From assembly GCA_021838785.1 (NCBI GenBank), contig JAKCCV010000025.1, positions 1 through 42,456 of the forward strand: DNA of 42,456 nucleotides, written 5' to 3'. Numbering within the stretch: the first letter of the stretch is position 1; every line of letters begins with the position of its first letter. The position numbers were made by a program, and so were the translations under genes. Under the pieces are notes generated by a model. It was not told the origin of the DNA. It saw nothing but the letters and a program-made list of their open reading frames with translations, and searched no databases. The stretch is from Acidobacteriota bacterium (GTDB taxonomy: Bacteria; Acidobacteriota; Terriglobia; UBA7540). Positions 5,692 through 26,442 of this stretch are shown piece by piece.

Positions 5692-5897
5692 TTTTGATCT
5701 CCTGGTGAAGTTGAAATTGCAAGAACAATTCCCGACACGGCTAAGGCAAAACCAAGAGCGAAGCCGATGAAGAAAGCTCTGGCCGGGTCTTGCGGGAGCA
5801 ATCCGGCGAATTCGGGCCATGCGCCGTAAAAGCCGATAAGCGGAGGGAAAGTGCAAAAGGACATATTCGTGGCTGCGAAAAGCTGGCGCCTTTTCAT
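5688..5897 (-). CDS. Small membrane protein between trbE and trbG
   Basis: 69 residues with one strong hydrophobic helix near residues 41-61 (ARAFFIGFALGFALAVSGIVLAI). The start overlaps the end of trbE and the stop TGA overlaps the trbG ATG, so it is embedded in the translationally coupled chain. No family recognised. Position and topology suggest an accessory inner-membrane component of the transfer apparatus. Confidence 0.6.
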   Translation of the reverse strand: MKRRQLFAATNMSFCTFPPLIGFYGAWPEFAGLLPQDPARAFFIGFALGFALAVSGIVLAISTSPGDQK

Positions 5898-8347
5898 GCG
5901 CGCTCTCCCGCGAGCTTTTTGAGTCCTTCGTCAAGCCCGTATTTCTGAAAGGCTTCCCGGCGCTTCTGGTTGTCAAAGGGGTCGTTCGTATAAAGCCAGT
6001 AGCTTTTTGGGTCTACGTCGAGGTTGGCGACTTTGGCGATGTCGGGCTTCTTGATCAGCATTTGGCGCTTCGGAATGAGTGTTGAAATGAGCTCGACTTC
6101 GCGGTCGTTCAAGTAAAACTGGCGCTGATAGAGGTCGCGTTCCATGTCCGGATTGGCCAGAAAAATCTTGGTCGCGCAGCTCTCGATGATCACGGCGAGG
6201 ATTTCAGACCTTCGCAGCTCATCAAGCGATTGCGTCGAGAGGATCATGGCGGCGTTCGATTTCCGCCAAGTCTTGAGGGCTTCGACGATGTGGCTCTTGA
6301 TGCTGGAGTTGCGGAAGAAAACCCACGCCTCGTCAATGAAGAAGGCTTTGAAGATGTGGGTGCTCGCGCTGCCGGTGATGACGCCGTTCGCCCGATGCAG
6401 GACGTAGAAAAGCAGCGGCTCCAGGATGTCGGGATAGCTGCTCATCCCCTGGAAATCGAAGCATTGGAATTGAGCGAAGGTTAGCGTGTCCTTGGGGTTG
6501 TCGAAAACGAGACCGAATTGTCCGCCCATCGTCCATTTTTCGAGCCGCTTTGCGAGGTGGCGGTCGAGCGTGTTCGCAAGCGTGCTGAGCGTCCTAAGTT
6601 CTGGCTCGATTTCGTAGAGGTTCTCGATCTGGTGATAAAGCTCCTGGGATTCGTCGCTGGTCAGACGCTCTTCGCCTTTGCCTTCCATGAGAACCTTCAC
6701 GAACAGGGTGAGAAAGTCGAGATTTTGTTTCGTCTGGGGCAGGCAGAATGGATTGATCGTGAATGCCGATGAATTGAGGCCCACGCGAACGTATGCGCCA
6801 CCGAAGAGCCCGGTAAGCGTTTCAAAGCTTCCGCCCAAGTCGAAAATGAACGTGGCGGGTTCGTATTTCTGAAGATTCGTTATCAGGAAATTCAGAAGGA
6901 ACGATTTCCCCGCACCTGTGTGGCCCAAGATCACCGTGTGGGCCACGTCCTGGTAATGGAGGTTCAACTAGTAGGGCGTCTTGTGGTTGGTTTCGAGGAT
7001 TGCAAGGTATTCGCTCTTGAGATGGCTGATGGTCTGATGGCCGGAATGAAGAGTGAAGAGAAACGAGTAGTCGGCGTAATTCGTGTTGAGGATAAGCATC
7101 CGGCGCAAATTGAAGGCATAGTTGCCGGGCACGGTCGCAAGGTAAGCGTTCAGGAGGTTGTAGCTCTCCTCGTAAACCGTGCCGTCGTGCATGCTGAAGA
7201 CTTTGTAGAAGTCTGCGCAAGAGGCTTCGGCCTTCGCCAAATCCAGATCGTAAACCACAATGGCCAGGGAGAACTCGCCAAAGTAATTGCCCTTGAGTTC
7301 GATCTCCTCGAGCGCCCGCCCAAGATCGCGGACTTGAGCCTCTTTCGAGTCGTCAACCAGTACGTCGTGCGGATTTTCCGGCTGGTTCGACATACTCAGG
7401 TGGCTCATGAATGAGCGCTTCGTGTTGTGGTAGTGTCGACGACGGGAATGGATTTGGCTTCGGGTTTTGTCCGGAGCCTGCTTTTTCCATTCGGTCACGA
7501 CGAAGAAATTCGCGGGGACTTCCAGGAGCCGTTGGAAGATGAGCGGGAAGCTTTGGGCCGAAGGCTCTTTGAGGGTCATGACTTTCACGAAATAATCATC
7601 CACCCTCAGAAAACCCCGGTGGCATTCGAGATGCGATTCGCAAAGGCCGCAATCGAGAAACGCATCGCCGTTGAGGCGGGCACCATTGGTCTTCTCGGGG
7701 GAGAAATTGAGAATTGATTTGAGGACTTTGAAGGCCACTTGCTTCGGTAGGATTTCGACCTTTGTGAAATCGCTGACCTGAACGGCGAAGCTACGGACCT
7801 TGGTCAGTAGCGCAACTCTCGCTTTCTCGATCTCGGCGTCAATCAGGACCACCTGCCTTTTTGTTGAGCTGAAAGCGGCGAACTGCCGTAACGCCTGGGC
7901 GGGTTCGGAGGTCAGCTTGCCAAGGGTTGAAAGGAGCCTCTGCCGGTAGCGGAAGCTCTCAAACAGGATGACGTAATAGATCTTGAGAGAATAAATCTCG
8001 TCGGCTTTGCTGCGAAGATAATCAATGCGGCTGCGGATGGCGGCATCCACCACCGGATCACCGTAGGTCTGGGATGGGATCTCGGCCCGGTTGCGCTTGA
8101 AAAGGTACTGATAGACGCGGCATTTCTCGTCGAAAATCTTGAGCGCGGATTCGAGCCGCTTCGTGAGGTTGTCGAGGGTCGCCGAATCGAGGCATTCGTA
8201 ATCCACGCCTTCGATGGCGAGGACCACACCCACGTCACCACTCTTCGTCAGAAACACTTGGTCGTCAATAAAGCCGAACAGGTTGACCTGCTCGTTGAAC
8301 GAGCCGGCCTCGCGGTACGCTTTGTCAATGCGGTCAAGCCTGAACAT
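5894..8347 (-). CDS. trbE: TrbE/VirB4-family T4SS ATPase, interrupted by in-frame TAG
   Basis: Full span is 818 codons, the normal size for TrbE/VirB4 ATPases that power pilus assembly and substrate transfer. The N-terminal half (8347-6971) ends ILETNHKTPY, then TAG at 6968-6970. The same frame continues LNLHYQDVAHTVILGHTGAGKS with Walker A, followed by Walker B FFIDEAWVFF and the C-terminal NDPFDNQKRREAF motif. In relatives the TPY...NLH junction is continuous. The TAG sits just before the nucleotide-binding domain, so termination there gives a protein without ATPase activity. A TTG directly follows the TAG and could in principle re-start translation. The start overlaps trbD by 14 bases; the end overlaps the next small gene. 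Confidence 0.88.
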
Positions 8348-13690: not shown

Positions 13691-14926
13691 CTATAAGTTG
13701 GACATCAGATCAGTTGCCAATTCCAACTGACTATCACGCCCTGATCGAAGTGCTTCCCGAGAGAGTTCCATGCCGTGGTCGGGTTCGACCCCTTTCCCTT
13801 CAAGACAGTTTCCATTCCACGTATAAAAGGTCATCACTGGAATGCGCAGAACAAAGCCGTGGCCAACTTTGAAACCTGTCCCGCCCAACACTTGGCCGGC
13901 GGTGCGTGTTCCTACAATCGTGGCGAGTCTGTTTTCGTGCGCGAAGCCGGTGATGGTTTCCGCCGCGCTTGCCGTATGCTCGTTCACTAACAAAACAATC
14001 CTGCCGTGAAATGGCTGAGGTCCGAGGCCTTCCGTAACCATCACGATGGATTTGTCGGCGAACGCATAGCGGAACGCGAGGCCGAAAAGCTCGAGCTTGC
14101 GTGAAGGAATCTTGCCGAAGCGCGGAAGTTTTTCCTTGTCAAAGCCCTTTTCGGCGCGCTTCTTACTCAAACTGTAGCCGACAGGAATTTTGTCGGGCGT
14201 CAGGTAGCCCATCAATCGGAGCCCGCCCGCGCCGCCGCCCGGATTCCCGCGCAAGTCAACGATCAGCCGGTCGCAATCGCGAAGCTCAGAAATCGCGTGG
14301 TCAATCTCACGCGCCACGTCCATTCCGACTTGTCCCGGAAATCCCGCCGCCTTCAGGTACCCGATTCCCGGCTCGGGCTTGGACCATGAAACGAGCCGTG
14401 GCCGATTGATCGGATGCCATTTGGATTTTGGCAGCGGCACCCCAAGGGGCACATGCACTTGCTCGCCGCTGAGCTTCTCGACGGCGATTTGGCAAAAGCC
14501 GCCCATTTTGAACGCCGGCTTTTCAGGTGGGCAGATCGGCTGGCCGTCAATCTCCAAGAGCAGGTCGCCGGGCCGGATTTCGGCAAGCGCGGGCGGGCTG
14601 CCGTCGTGAACGTCCTGGAACATCCACTTGGCGGTGCCGTTGACTTGGCAGGGCTGGAACGTGGCCCCTATCGCGTAATTCGACGCGATCTTTTGCAGGC
14701 TTTGGTGAAAAAATACAATGTGGCTGATTTTAAGTTCGGCAAGCAGGTCGCGGACGGCGCTTTCAAATTCCTCAACCGTCTCGCATTTGAGAATCCTGTC
14801 GCGGTGCGATTCGACGGCCCCAATCCAGTCGGCGCGATTAAACCCCGGCGCGAACAGTCGCTTAGCGGTCAGATCGGCAACCTTGTCGAACACCTCCGTG
14901 CGCTCTTTAAGTCCGATTGGGATCAT
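13691..14926 (-). CDS. S41-family (C-terminal processing) peptidase
   Basis: 411 residues from ATG 14924-14926, two bases after the TGA of the CHAT gene, so coupled to it. A helical N-terminal region is followed by a PDZ-like segment (LAEIRPGDLLLEIDGQ) and the S41 catalytic core: LIVDLRGNPGGGAGG, the nucleophile Ser in NEHTASAAE and the Lys in the GTRTAGQVLGG region. No signal peptide is seen at this start, so a cytoplasmic location is likely. Co-transcription with a CHAT protease gene suggests a joint proteolytic response module. Terminates at TAG. Confidence 0.82.
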   Translation of the reverse strand: MIPIGLKERTEVFDKVADLTAKRLFAPGFNRADWIGAVESHRDRILKCETVEEFESAVRDLLAELKISHIVFFHQSLQKIASNYAIGATFQPCQVNGTAKWMFQDVHDGSPPALAEIRPGDLLLEIDGQPICPPEKPAFKMGGFCQIAVEKLSGEQVHVPLGVPLPKSKWHPINRPRLVSWSKPEPGIGYLKAAGFPGQVGMDVAREIDHAISELRDCDRLIVDLRGNPGGGAGGLRLMGYLTPDKIPVGYSLSKKRAEKGFDKEKLPRFGKIPSRKLELFGLAFRYAFADKSIVMVTEGLGPQPFHGRIVLLVNEHTASAAETITGFAHENRLATIVGTRTAGQVLGGTGFKVGHGFVLRIPVMTFYTWNGNCLEGKGVEPDHGMELSREALRSGRDSQLELATDLMSNL

Positions 14927-14928
14927 GG

Positions 14929-17628
14929 TCAAAAGTTTATCGGTTTTGAGGCGTCGCCGACAACAACGAACGGCGCCCAATAGATTGGCGGCTTCGTGCC
15001 CTTTTGTTTCAAGTAATCAAGCTTTGCGTGGCGCAGGGCCGCAGCTTCATCCTGATGCTGCGCTAAATGGGTATAGAAATGCGCCATCAGGAATTCCGTT
15101 GAAGAATCATCCACTGGCCACAGTGACGCGGCGACGGCCCGCGCGCCGGCGAAGAGAAAAGCCTGAACCAGACCGATCGTTCCTTCCTCGCCTTCGAGCT
15201 TTCCAGTCGCGGTGTCGCAGGCGGAGAGCGTCACCAAGTCCGCGTCGAGGTGAAGCTGCGCGATTTCGCGGACTTGGAGCAATCCGTCGTCTGTTGAATG
15301 CGGATCGCGGCCCAGTACCAAGGCGTCTCTTTCGGGAAAGCTGGGCGTGGATAGTCCATGAACCGCGAAGTGGATGATTTTGAAATCGCAGAGCGGCTCG
15401 GACTTGAATTGCGCCTCGCTAGCATTCGTTCCAAGCAAGAGAACGGTTTGCTTCGGATCGCCCAGCGCCTGGCTGGCGAGCATCAATTCCTGACGGGTTT
15501 CGGGGAGCGCATACAAATGGTCTCCGGAAATGTCGTACATGCCGTGCGCAACGAAGGCCATCAGGGTGTGCTTCGCGCCGGACTGCGCCGGCTGAGGCTC
15601 CATGCCATAGCGCACATCGCCGATTCCCAAGAACGCCATTTGGGGCTGATGCTCGCGGTGGCGATTTCGCAGGTAGCAGAGTACGGTCGCCGAAGGCGCA
15701 TAGCTGATGACGTGAGACCTGATGACGTATTGCCCGTCGGGCCGTTGAAGCGCGTCGAACGGAAGATCGTTAAGGACGCCGTCCGGCACGATCACCAACT
15801 GCCTCAGCCGGAGCAAATTGGGAATCGGCTTGAGAAGCGCCGCATAAAGCGCTGTCGCATCCTGCACGGCAAACCTGCCCGCCATAACCTGGGACTTATA
15901 GCGGGACATTAGTTGCTCAATTTGTTTCTTGCCGGCGGGCAGCCGGACAATCTGCGCGTCACCGTGCGTGATGGCAATGCAATATGAATTCGGGTCGGCG
16001 AGAACGTATTCGAGGACCGCCTCGTCGGGCAGGATTGCGGCCTGGGCAGCTTTAACCGATACGGAATCGGTGGCGTCTTGACTCTGTTCCGGCGTCAGAG
16101 CTTCAGTGTACCAGCGAAGGGTCTCTTCTTCCGCGTCGAGATTTACAAGCAGCTTGCTGCGTTGGGCGGGATCGTTGGTATCGAGCAATTGGTTCTGTAT
16201 TTGCGAGATTTGGCTTTCGGCTTCCCTTTGCGCGGGGGTTCGTGCCGTGGCAACTGCTGGATCGCGCATGTTGTCCAGAACGGTGCGGCCTCGGGCCTGC
16301 TCGATGGCGTCAAACGCGGCGCTGACGTTGTTCTGGCTCGCCGCCAGCTTGAAATCGCCAAGATACGTGTCGCTCATGGCGCTCATAAGCGAACTCTGGC
16401 CATAAGCGCCGGGGTAGCGGACCAACATGCCGTCAATCACGCCCTCGGCCCGCTTGTAAAGCGCGTAAGCTTGGTCGGGCTGGCCCGTTTGAGCTTTAAG
16501 CTCCGCGGGCGCGTCCAAAGCGCGAGGTAGGTAATACGTGTCGCCAGTCGTCTGGCTGATCGCGAGCCCCTGATTGAAGGTGTTCTCAGCGTCTTTCAGG
16601 TCGCCGCTATTCTCCAGCAATTTCGACAGATCGAATCAAGATTGCATGGCGACACGAGGCAGGCCCATCTGCGTTGCCGATTTCATCGCCCCTTCGAAAT
16701 ACTCGCGGGCTTGAGCCTGCTGCCCGGACTGAACAGCGAACTGGCCAAGGATGAGCAAATCCTGGCCCTCGTGTTCAAGCATCTTTTCCTTGCGCGCCTT
16801 GGCGAGAGTGCGCTGCATTAAAGCCTGCGCTTCATCCATCTTGCCTTCCATCGCGAGCGCCTCGGCTTTGCCTTCGTAAGCCATGAACGGCGTGCCGATA
16901 TCGTGATTGCGGTCTGCCATCCCAATAACGTGGTTGAAGAAAACCATCGCCTCGGCGGGGCGATTGAGCGCGTTCCATCCGTTCCCGACAATTTCCAGGT
17001 ATCGAACCTCCGTGCCGGTGTCGGATTCGGCCATTGCAGTCATGAGTGCCCCGCCGACCATGTGCGCGGCTTGCTTGACGTTGCCCTGGAGAAAATTGAT
17101 CAGCCCCAACTCGCCCGTGGCTCGATTGGCCCACTCTTTTTCCCCGAGTTGTTGGGCAAGACTCCGCGCCTGCTCCCAATCCTGCTGCGCGGCCTCGGCA
17201 TTTACTTCATCGTCGGCATCTCCCTTCACGCCCAGACGCCACAGGCGCAGTTCGGGATCGTTTTGGACAAGCGGAGTCTTGAGTTGCATGGCAATGAACG
17301 CGGAAAGTTGCGGAAATGGGACTGCGTCCCCTGACCGCATCGCGCCGATCTTAGCATAGAGCGCGTCACGATCATCGTGGGCTTACGCGGCAAGCTCCTC
17401 GGCGCGTTCGTACAGCGGCGTGGATTTTGAAAGGTTATGAAGCCAGTAGAAGTAATTTGCCTTGGCGATCAGGGCCTTGACACTGTTTGGGTGCGAATGG
17501 CCGACCTTGGCCAGAATCGAGTCCCACGGCGTTCGCGGCGAGCGGTGAACGAGATTCATAACAACAGCCGCTGCGATGATGACCGCGATAATTGAAGCCC
17601 AAAGGACCCTGTGTGGCCAGTTACCCAT
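14929..17628 (-). pseudogene. TPR-CHAT caspase-like protein, broken by in-frame TAA and TGA
   Basis: Read as one frame this is about 899 codons from ATG 17626-17628: a membrane anchor (residues 7-25, VLWASIIAVIIAAAVVMNLV), TPR repeats, then a C-terminal CHAT protease with the His in HFAVHG and the Cys in TLSACDT. The frame is interrupted by TAA 17383-17385 (after EELAA) and TGA 16636-16638 (after RVAMQS). TPR sequence continues in the same frame after both, so these are point nonsense changes (CAA and CGA are the simplest ancestors), not frameshifts. The TGA context has no neighbouring Cys and I found no SECIS-like hairpin. The isolated CHAT half (start 16620) could still be made. Confidence 0.8.
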
Positions 17629-21870: not shown

Positions 21871-22299
21871 ATGCAGATCGGCGAGTTGGCCCGGCGGGCG
21901 GGCGTCAACATTCAGACCGTTCGTTTCTACGAGCGGCAAAGACTGATTCCCCAACCTGCGCGCAAGCCGTCGGGGTATCGCGTGTACGGGGAAGCTGATT
22001 TGCACCGCTTGCTCTTTATTCGCCAGGCGAAGGAGCTTGGCTTTTCGTTAGAGGAAATCCGCGAAATCCTGGGCATGCGACAGCGCGGCACGTGTCCGTG
22101 CAGTCGCGTGGTGAGCCTGGCACAGCGGCACCTGGACAACATTCGGGAGACGATCCGCAATCTTGCGGGATTCGAGAAGGAGCTGAGCCGCGCCGTGAGG
22201 AAATGGAAAAATTCCGGGCAGCCGAGACTCGCGGCGAACGAGTTTTGCACGCTCATTGAGCAAACCATGAAAGATGGGACAAAGAAGGTAAGGCAATGA
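21871..22299 (+). CDS. merR: MerR-family metal-responsive regulator
   Basis: 142 residues: an N-terminal winged HTH (IGELARRAGVNIQTVRFYERQRLI), a long dimerisation helix, then a metal-binding loop. Cys75 and Cys77 (GTCPCSRVVSLAQRHL) align with Cys82 of Tn501 MerR, and Cys126 (FCTLIE) with MerR Cys126. The equivalent of MerR Cys117 is missing, so the ligand set may be C75/C77/C126 and the metal may differ from mercury. ATG 21871 lies just downstream of its own operator, so it is autoregulated. The stop TGA overlaps the ATG of the next gene. Confidence 0.85.
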   Translation: MQIGELARRAGVNIQTVRFYERQRLIPQPARKPSGYRVYGEADLHRLLFIRQAKELGFSLEEIREILGMRQRGTCPCSRVVSLAQRHLDNIRETIRNLAGFEKELSRAVRKWKNSGQPRLAANEFCTLIEQTMKDGTKKVRQ

Positions 22300-22595
22300 T
22301 GACCGGAATCAGGCGGGCCGGGATGCCGGTCCTTGCAGCATTCTTTGGGTTTCTATCGCGCCCCTGCTGAGCTTTGCCGCTCTTGGCGGGGCTTCTCGGT
22401 CTGGGGAGCGCGAGTCTGGCGGCAGTATTGGTGAAATTCCGATGGCTGTTTATCCTCGCGGCGTTCGTGTCCCTGGGTGTCGGGTTCAAGCTGAACGTCA
22501 TTCAGAGATCGAGCCGTTTAGCGCGGCTTTTCTATTGGGCCGGCGCTGTTGTGACCTTCGCGACCATCTTCTGGTGGGGCTGGTGGAGCCTTTGA
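22296..22595 (+). CDS. merT: MerT-like membrane transporter, candidate selenoprotein (UGA = Sec25)
   Basis: 99 residues from ATG 22296, overlapping the merR stop (ATGA). Codon 25 (22368-22370) is TGA directly after Cys24: SRPC-TGA-ALPLLAGLLGLGS. MerT-like proteins carry a vicinal Cys-Cys here in TM1; the second MerT-like gene of this cluster reads LLCCALPSLLVVFGLG. The frame continues through two more TM helices (FRWLFILAAFVSLGVGF and RLFYWAGAVVTFATIFWWGWW) to TGA 22593-22595. A hairpin (stem 22391-22397/22403-22409, loop GGUCU at 22398-22402) lies 27 bases after the UGA. I conclude Cys-Sec replaces Cys-Cys. It probably moves a soft metal ion across the inner membrane. Automated annotation would shorten or miss it. 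Confidence 0.82.
22391..22409 (+). promoter_or_regulatory. Candidate bacterial SECIS hairpin in merT(Sec)
   Basis: Seven contiguous pairs (GCUUCUC with GGGGAGC, two of them G-U) close a 5-base loop GGUCU. The loop starts 27 bases after the UGA at 22368 and begins with GG. Published bacterial SECIS models ask for an apical loop 16-37 bases from UGA with a G among the first two loop bases; GGUCU also occurs in the E. coli fdhF element as I recall it. Confidence 0.75.
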
Positions 22596-25935: not shown

Positions 25936-26442
25936 ATGAAGCGCCTTTCTATGTTGGTATGTCTGGCAGCAATTCTGGCGGCCATGCCTGTTAAAGCGGA
26001 ATTCCGGCAAATCAATCTCACGACGTTCGGTATGGATTGAGCGATTTGCGCCCACGCCGTGAGCGTGGCAGTCAAGAAAATTCCGGGGGTCGAAAGCGTG
26101 AATGTGAGCCTCAATGAGGGCTTGGTGAGCATCACGCTTGTTCCGGGAAATGCAGTGAGGTTGGACCAGATCCGGAAAGCCATCCTCAATGACGCCTTTA
26201 CGCCTAAGGACGCAAATGTCGTGGCTGTCGGCAGACTGGCAGCCGAGGGCGGGAAGTTACGGTTCGTGGTCGCGGGAACGAACGAAACATTTCCCGTGGC
26301 CTCGACTGAGCACCCATCCTGGCAGAGGTACATCGGGCGTGAGGCGACCGTGAAAGGATTGCTTGCCGCTCCGGTCAAGGGGACGGAAGGTGGTGCGCTT
26401 CAACTGACCAGCGTCTCGCCTGTCCCACAGACCAAGAATTAG
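25936..26442 (+). CDS. merP: MerP-like exported HMA protein, candidate selenoprotein (UGA = Sec35)
   Basis: 168 residues from ATG 25936 behind GGGGAGGAAC. Signal peptide 1-21 (cleavage near VKA-EF). The HMA domain reads INLTTFGMD-TGA-AICAHAVSVAVKKIPGVESVNV: TGA at 26038-26040 replaces the first Cys of the invariant metal-binding GMxCxxC, giving U-x-x-C. Everything else of the HMA fold is intact. The second half (from about residue 95) is an extra beta-rich domain (LRFVVAGTNETFPVAS) not found in MerP. A SECIS-like hairpin lies at 26052-26068. A plain stop would leave a 34-residue peptide. Expected role: periplasmic capture of a soft metal and transfer to the MerT-like permease encoded next. 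Confidence 0.85.
26052..26068 (+). promoter_or_regulatory. Candidate bacterial SECIS hairpin in merP(Sec)
   Basis: Six Watson-Crick pairs (CCACGC with GCGTGG) close loop CGUGA (26058-26062). The loop starts 17 bases after the UGA and has G in its second position, within the usual limits for bacterial SECIS elements. Confidence 0.65.

Follow-up and report, generated by a model that had tools for sequence, protein, structure and literature searches.

A predicted selenocysteine-containing MerP-like protein with an added OB-like domain, encoded in a MerR-type cassette of an Acidobacteriota contig

The gene at positions 25936-26442 of a 42,456-nucleotide contig from an Acidobacteriota genome (hereafter the window, meaning this whole stretch) carries an in-frame UGA where its relatives carry the first cysteine of the metal-binding motif GMxCxxC. 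Is this UGA a nonsense change or a sequencing error, a codon for an ordinary amino acid, or a codon for selenocysteine (Sec), and, if the last, what would a protein with Sec at a metal ligand do? Our overall reading, to which we assign a probability of about 0.85, is that the gene directs a Sec-decoded, secreted, soft-metal-binding MerP-like protein within a MerR-regulated cassette. The features of the window that bear on this reading are listed in Table 1.

Table 1. Features of the cassette and its surroundings in the window
Start	End	Strand	Feature	Details
21832	21861	+	MerR-type promoter/operator	before merR-merT
21871	22299	+	MerR-family regulator	
22296	22595	+	MerT-like gene, candidate second selenoprotein	in-frame UGA 22368-22370; RPC-U where homologues have RPCC
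22392	22410	+	candidate SECIS of the MerT-like gene	stem of 7 bp; GGUCU loop at 28 nt from the UGA
23483	23512	+	MerR-type promoter/operator	before the Cys-rich gene
23536	23679	+	small Cys-rich, metallothionein-like protein	weak match to MymT
25014	25043	+	MerR-type promoter/operator	before the cassette; TTGACT, 20-bp spacer, TAGCGT
25061	25918	+	protein of an unnamed family, first cassette gene	probably exported, predicted outer-membrane-like; adjoins the MerP-like gene
25936	26442	+	MerP-like gene, predicted selenoprotein, 168 aa	signal peptide, HMA domain with GMDUxxC, C-terminal OB-like domain
26038	26040	+	in-frame UGA of the MerP-like gene	predicted to be read as Sec, position 35
26052	26068	+	predicted bacterial SECIS hairpin	stem 26052-26057/26063-26068 (6 bp); loop 26058-26062, CGUGA
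26197	26439	+	C-terminal OB-like domain, coding part	about residue 88 to the end; approximate boundaries
26469	26903	+	MerT-like membrane protein, third cassette gene	intact vicinal CC pair; weak profile matches only

The reading frame and its predicted protein

The MerP-like frame opens with ATG 25936, upstream of which lies the Shine-Dalgarno-like sequence GGGGAGG, and closes with a TAG stop ending at 26442. On translation of the frame, the UGA was its sole interruption; the coordinates of the gene and of the UGA, and the location of the latter, where GMD(C)xxC has its first Cys, are correct as given in the first-pass annotation of this DNA. The N-terminus of the protein is signal-peptide-like, the motif GMDUAIC lies within an HMA domain, and about 80 residues follow beyond this domain. 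The HMA assignment, made earlier from the sequence alone, held in the profile search (PF00403, E 4.4e-10, 40.2 bits against a gathering cut-off of 24.8). Against TIGR02052, the MerP equivalog model, the protein scored 36.7 bits with a cut-off of 92.55, and it is referred to here as MerP-like, not filed as MerP.

An AlphaFold model of the protein (pLDDT 85) consisted of an HMA fold followed by a small beta domain, and on structure comparison the HMA half matched the structures of CopZ and MerP. Structure prediction of the added C-terminal domain, proposed at the outset as a check, gave a model of this domain alone at pLDDT 77 and a likeness to OB-folds (PriB, SSB, NlpE and SilB/SilF) with Z of 7.7 or lower, none reaching 8 and thus all below the level of kinship. 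In Pfam, DUF5818 appeared as a weak match to the C-terminal domain in 2 of 23 family members, and no other Pfam family was found for it. By the model, the C-terminal addition is an OB-like domain, and it may serve in the binding of a partner. When the MerP-like gene was compared with its closest relative, the substitutions located 3' of the UGA numbered 19, 12 and 51 at codon positions 1, 2 and 3, respectively; this excess at the third position is the pattern expected for a translated sequence under purifying selection.

Conservation of the UGA, the hairpin and the decoding machinery

Searching the class (399 genomes) yielded 66 homologous places, in which internal stops were always TGA and never TAA or TAG. 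Thirty class loci were read residue by residue, two of them representing the same contig and one (L043) being devoid of the column in question; 11 distinct loci had UGA at exactly the Sec codon of the MerP-like gene, and the remaining ones had Cys. The homologue at L043 (G132:C132) lies in two frames and is apparently frameshifted or broken. When 84,980 species genomes were scanned with the pattern (F/Y)GMD-UGA-xx-CA, 65 matches emerged, of which 39 were homologous frames carrying UGA at this codon and 26 were unrelated, the latter number being near the chance expectation by a rough estimate. Random nonsense change had been considered very unlikely from the window alone, and with 39 homologous in-frame UGAs at the same codon chance is excluded. 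According to database labels and the tree, the UGA members belong to Acidobacteriota, Gemmatimonadota, Myxococcota (labelled 'Deltaproteobacteria' and Polyangium), Planctomycetota and Verrucomicrobiota (Limisphaerales), and one further member is labelled Acidimicrobiia. One metagenome-assembled genome (MAG), Centralia_MAG_36, carries two UGA copies of the gene (L058 and L078). In a search of a plasmid collection, just one weak match was obtained, to a P-type ATPase.

The UGA is followed by the hairpin listed in Table 1. Its 6-bp stem and its CGUGA loop were as described in the first-pass annotation; its spacing, described there as a hairpin starting 17 bases after the UGA, needs correction in that it is the loop that begins 17 nt after the UGA, the stem beginning at 11 nt. 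PMC13188914 gives, as criteria for a bacterial SECIS (bSECIS), a loop of 3-9 nt, an upper stem of 4-16 bp, G in the first two loop positions, a UGA-to-loop distance of 16-37 nt and an MFE of -7.5 kcal/mol or lower. The hairpin of the MerP-like gene falls within all of these limits, with a loop of 5 nt, a stem of 6 bp, G at loop position 2 followed by U, a spacing of 17 nt and, when folded alone, -9.0 kcal/mol (z -3.1). A 48-nt piece containing it folded at -11.8 kcal/mol (z -0.4) and was not unusually stable. Folding energy of a single sequence was rejected as proof of a SECIS, pieces of 42-48 nt giving mostly unremarkable z-scores against shuffles, and the case for the SECIS therefore rests on conservation and covariation. 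An Rfam search of the window gave no match.

Among 11 class sequences, 98.5% of the pair cells were kept and 5 of the 6 pairs were doubly changed. With 35 distinct sequences, pairing was kept in 203 of 210 cells (96.7%), with 25 double-change cells; none of 500 shuffles matched either the percentage paired or the covariation score, and sliding of the register lowered the pairing to 13-65%. The loop is CGUGN in 34 of these 35 sequences. The exception, a UGA member of Limisphaerales (L094, 1967-2251), has its stem shifted by one base and may carry an alternative SECIS. In Cys orthologues (n=10), 28 of 60 cells were paired and the loop was without GU. A lack of SECIS support in homologues, named beforehand as an observation that would speak against Sec, is clearly not what was found.

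The genome with the window (G000; 3.4 Mb, 98% complete) contains, as identified by profile search, full-length selB (352 bits over cut-off) and full-length selA (570 bits), together with selD (374 bits) and a tRNA-Sec with the anticodon UCA (74.9 bits). The set required for bacterial selenoproteins, SelA, SelB, SelD and tRNA-Sec(UCA), was thus found in full. The selD gene of this genome (1501-2427 of L018, G000:C36) likewise encodes a selenoprotein: an in-frame UGA lies in its KAAGUAAK motif, and 3' of this UGA is the hairpin-capable sequence GAGUCCAA-GGAUU-UUGGACUC.

Among the UGA members and their close Cys orthologues, the distribution of selB follows the state of the codon. It was present in 13 of 13 genomes carrying the UGA form; in G210 it is split into two fragments that lie at contig ends and score under cut-off. 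It was absent from 10 of 10 genomes with close Cys orthologues, all belonging to a single family (f10), and a further two genomes of this family have the UGA gene and possess selB. The distant Cys homologues (family f5) occur in genomes with selB. Since related genomes are not independent, this association is taken as support for Sec decoding and not as a test statistic. In a tree of 49 proteins, two Sec/Cys changes were needed and the f10 Cys clade was nested inside the Sec sequences, a placement that suggests Sec-to-Cys conversion together with selB loss.

Homologues with the same UGA, the covarying SECIS and the association with selB bear out the original proposal of Sec in place of the first CxxC cysteine, and on this comparative evidence UGA 26038 is almost certainly decoded as Sec. 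Reassignment of UGA throughout the genome, or its reading as Trp, Cys or Gly, would let the frame go on past the codon as observed, but it has a negligible chance, because TGA serves as the ordinary stop of merR, of both MerT-like genes and of other genes in the window, so that the code is not reassigned, while the genome holds a complete Sec system with a UCA tRNA-Sec and the UGA stands where relatives have Cys. An equally slight chance is left to the view that this is an ordinary MerP gene whose UGA arose by nonsense mutation or sequencing error, with translation perhaps restarting at GTG 26059. The contig coverage is low (cov_4.7), a 127-aa open reading frame does start from this GTG, and another window gene, that for VirB4, is broken by TAG. 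The product of the GTG frame, however, would be devoid of both the signal peptide and the metal motif, and an error in one assembly leaves unexplained the in-frame UGAs of the 39 homologues, which come from dozens of unrelated assemblies, the absence of TAA and TAG in the class search, the covarying hairpin, the selB association and the protein-like substitutions on both sides of the UGA. The homologues refute this explanation; even if only the window copy were erroneous, it would still bear the hairpin of the family.

The cassette, the second UGA and the mobile setting

With Sec decoding as the reading adopted, we turn to the neighbours of the MerP-like gene. The order outer-membrane-like, MerP-like and MerT-like is kept in nearly all sufficiently long loci, Sec and Cys forms alike; no Pfam or NCBIfam family was found for the product of the first gene. 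The three MerR-type promoters of the window are near-identical and all have 20-bp spacers (0 expected by shuffling). The first-pass annotation had placed two independent UGAs, both on metal-ligand Cys positions, in one operon cluster. The second UGA does exist, in the MerT-like gene next to merR, but the two genes lie 3.3 kb apart, are preceded by separate MerR-type promoters and have an opposite-strand gene between them; they probably form one MerR-type regulon rather than one operon.

The candidate SECIS of the MerT-like gene at 22296-22595 also agrees with the bSECIS criteria, and a longer piece prefers another fold. Two homologues of this gene (L070 and L056) have RPCC at the corresponding position. 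Homologues with the UGA in other genomes, suggested earlier as a check, did not turn up: the 399 genomes of the class and the 396 of the phylum that were searched contained none, the shared contig itself aside, and the UGA at 22368, unique to this contig, is for this reason a plausible candidate rather than a demonstrated case; we consider it likely that it also specifies Sec. For the MerT-like gene of the cassette itself, no UGA was present at the Cys positions in 19 homologues inspected. Both proteins missed the MerT family cut-off (17.1 against 130 bits, other matches being weaker), and they are called MerT-like from their CC motif, size and neighbours only.

The remaining genes of the window include those for TrbC/VirB2, VirB4, VirB6, VirB9, a VirB10-like protein, an integrase, a type III restriction system, AbiE and an ArdC-like protein. 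The VirB4-like gene (5894-8347, minus strand) is interrupted by the in-frame TAG, which may mean that the element is defective or that an error is present; with VirB4 so broken, the window is regarded as an integrative conjugative element or its remnant. Genes for a CHAT-domain protein, an S41 peptidase and a TPR protein adjoin one another at 13691-17340 on the minus strand and are possible protease-based defence genes. Both G000 and G079 (L022, G079:C21), MAGs that belong to different genera, contain a contig of 42456 nt with identical sequence over the 3.5 kb compared; either a shared mobile element or double binning may be the cause, and the host of the contig is therefore not certain. The tetranucleotide use of the contig is nearer to G000 (0.80) than to G079 (0.64), and selB is present in both.

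Function, metal and relation to known systems

In the classical system, the two cysteines of MerP bind Hg(II) and pass it to MerT. For the window protein we infer a comparable route. The SelA, SelB, SelC and SelD of the host would decode the UGA as Sec under the direction of the hairpin, and the secreted two-domain product would bind a soft metal in its HMA domain between the selenolate of Sec35 and the thiolate of Cys38, as MerP does with two cysteines. In the periplasm it would probably pick up Hg(II), or another thiophilic ion like it, and deliver this to the adjoining MerT-like permease, the OB-like domain possibly holding the protein to a partner, and the MerR-type regulator of the same element would switch the cassette on. 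By analogy with MerP, there is a good likelihood that the MerP-like selenoprotein binds metal.

Another function for the UxxC motif would be redox activity, as the site of a periplasmic selenol/thiol oxidoreductase or metal reductase, not metal transfer. According to PMC13188914, a redox function is presumed for most known UxxC selenoproteins. The fold here is HMA, however, and not thioredoxin, and the conserved neighbours, preceded by MerR-type promoters, encode a MerT-like permease and a metallothionein-like protein, so that a redox role appears unlikely.

A choice that is more evenly balanced concerns the metal to be bound by the MerP-like selenoprotein, for which the odds that Hg is the main one fall a little short of even, while Cu(I), Ag(I), Cd(II) or Zn(II) in its place is a lesser possibility, yet one of real weight. 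The best NCBIfam matches of the protein, all below their cut-offs, are copper chaperones, with CopZ models foremost, and the small Cys-rich protein is similar to MymT, a copper metallothionein. Aligned to a reference MerR, the MerR of the window presumably keeps two of the three Hg-ligand Cys and misses the middle one, and the operators have 20-bp spacers. Mercury is favoured, on the other side, by the co-occurrence of MerR, MerT-like and MerP-like genes and by the best profile of the MerR, which is the Hg MerR model (111.6 bits, below the cut-off of 150.85). The genome of the window also contains a MerA over cut-off, flanked by a MerT-like and a merR gene, and in another genome (G280) the cassette adjoins a merR-merP-merA cluster. 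Against mercury, MerA was over cut-off in just 2 of 16 genomes tested. A MerA-like flavoprotein frame with one internal TGA, in another Sec-decoding genome (G117:C9:1410-2792), is a possible further selenoprotein.

A wider and speculative reading, rather unlikely as a whole, would be that of a mobile selenium-dependent module for soft-metal (mercury) resistance, in which the MerT-like and MerP-OB selenoproteins pass Hg(II) between selenolate sites and, in lineages without selB, the chaperone has reverted to Cys with loss of the SECIS. If so, the cargo would work only in Sec-decoding hosts.

Sec is mostly known from redox enzymes. In this family it would stand in for a metal ligand of a chaperone domain that is well studied in its Cys form, and the idea that a selenolate traps soft metals better can thus be put to a direct test on a small soluble domain. 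With about 40 UGA members, a covarying hairpin and a nested Cys clade, the family would also provide a clean case of Sec-to-Cys conversion with selB loss. Such genes are likely called truncated by annotation pipelines.

Selenoproteins of this type have precedents. The 2008 Global Ocean Sampling study (PMC2398784) listed among its selenoprotein families 'Mercuric transport protein MerP' and 'Putative mercuric transport protein', with two sequences each, and thus already predicted Sec in MerP-type and MerT-type proteins; these came from one sample, motif and architecture are absent there, and the window family is set against them by description only. In the accessible parts of the 2022 and 2026 reviews, MerP is not in the selenoprotein family tables, and HMA plus OB with UxxC, a conserved cassette, a covarying SECIS and a mobile setting are absent. 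MerP and MerT have therefore counted among the predicted selenoprotein families since 2008, and the HMA-OB family with UxxC is a variant thereof.

Two NCBIfam protein models come close. NF041115, the UxxU metal-binding (seleno)protein, shares with the window protein a single HMA-type domain with Sec at ligand positions; it has UxxU, 74 positions and no OB domain, whereas the window protein has one Sec and scores 32.4 bits against a cut-off of 95. NF045683, the MerT/CopZ fusion-like heavy metal transport selenoprotein, likewise has Sec and joins a MerT-like to an HMA part, but it is a fusion protein, and the scores here were 16 and 15 against a cut-off of 375.

With respect to the SECIS, that of E. 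coli formate dehydrogenase has a small GU-bearing loop at about 17 nt from the UGA, as has the MerP-like hairpin; its stem sequence differs from that of the MerP-like family, in which the CGUGN loop is nearly invariant. The location of the hairpin just 3' of the UGA is common to both and to the bSECIS consensus in PMC13188914. With classical MerP (TIGR02052; PDB 1osd and 1afi), the window protein shares a periplasmic HMA domain, the GMxCxxC motif and the adjoining MerT; it differs in having Sec for the first Cys, an extra OB-like domain and a length greater by about 75 residues.
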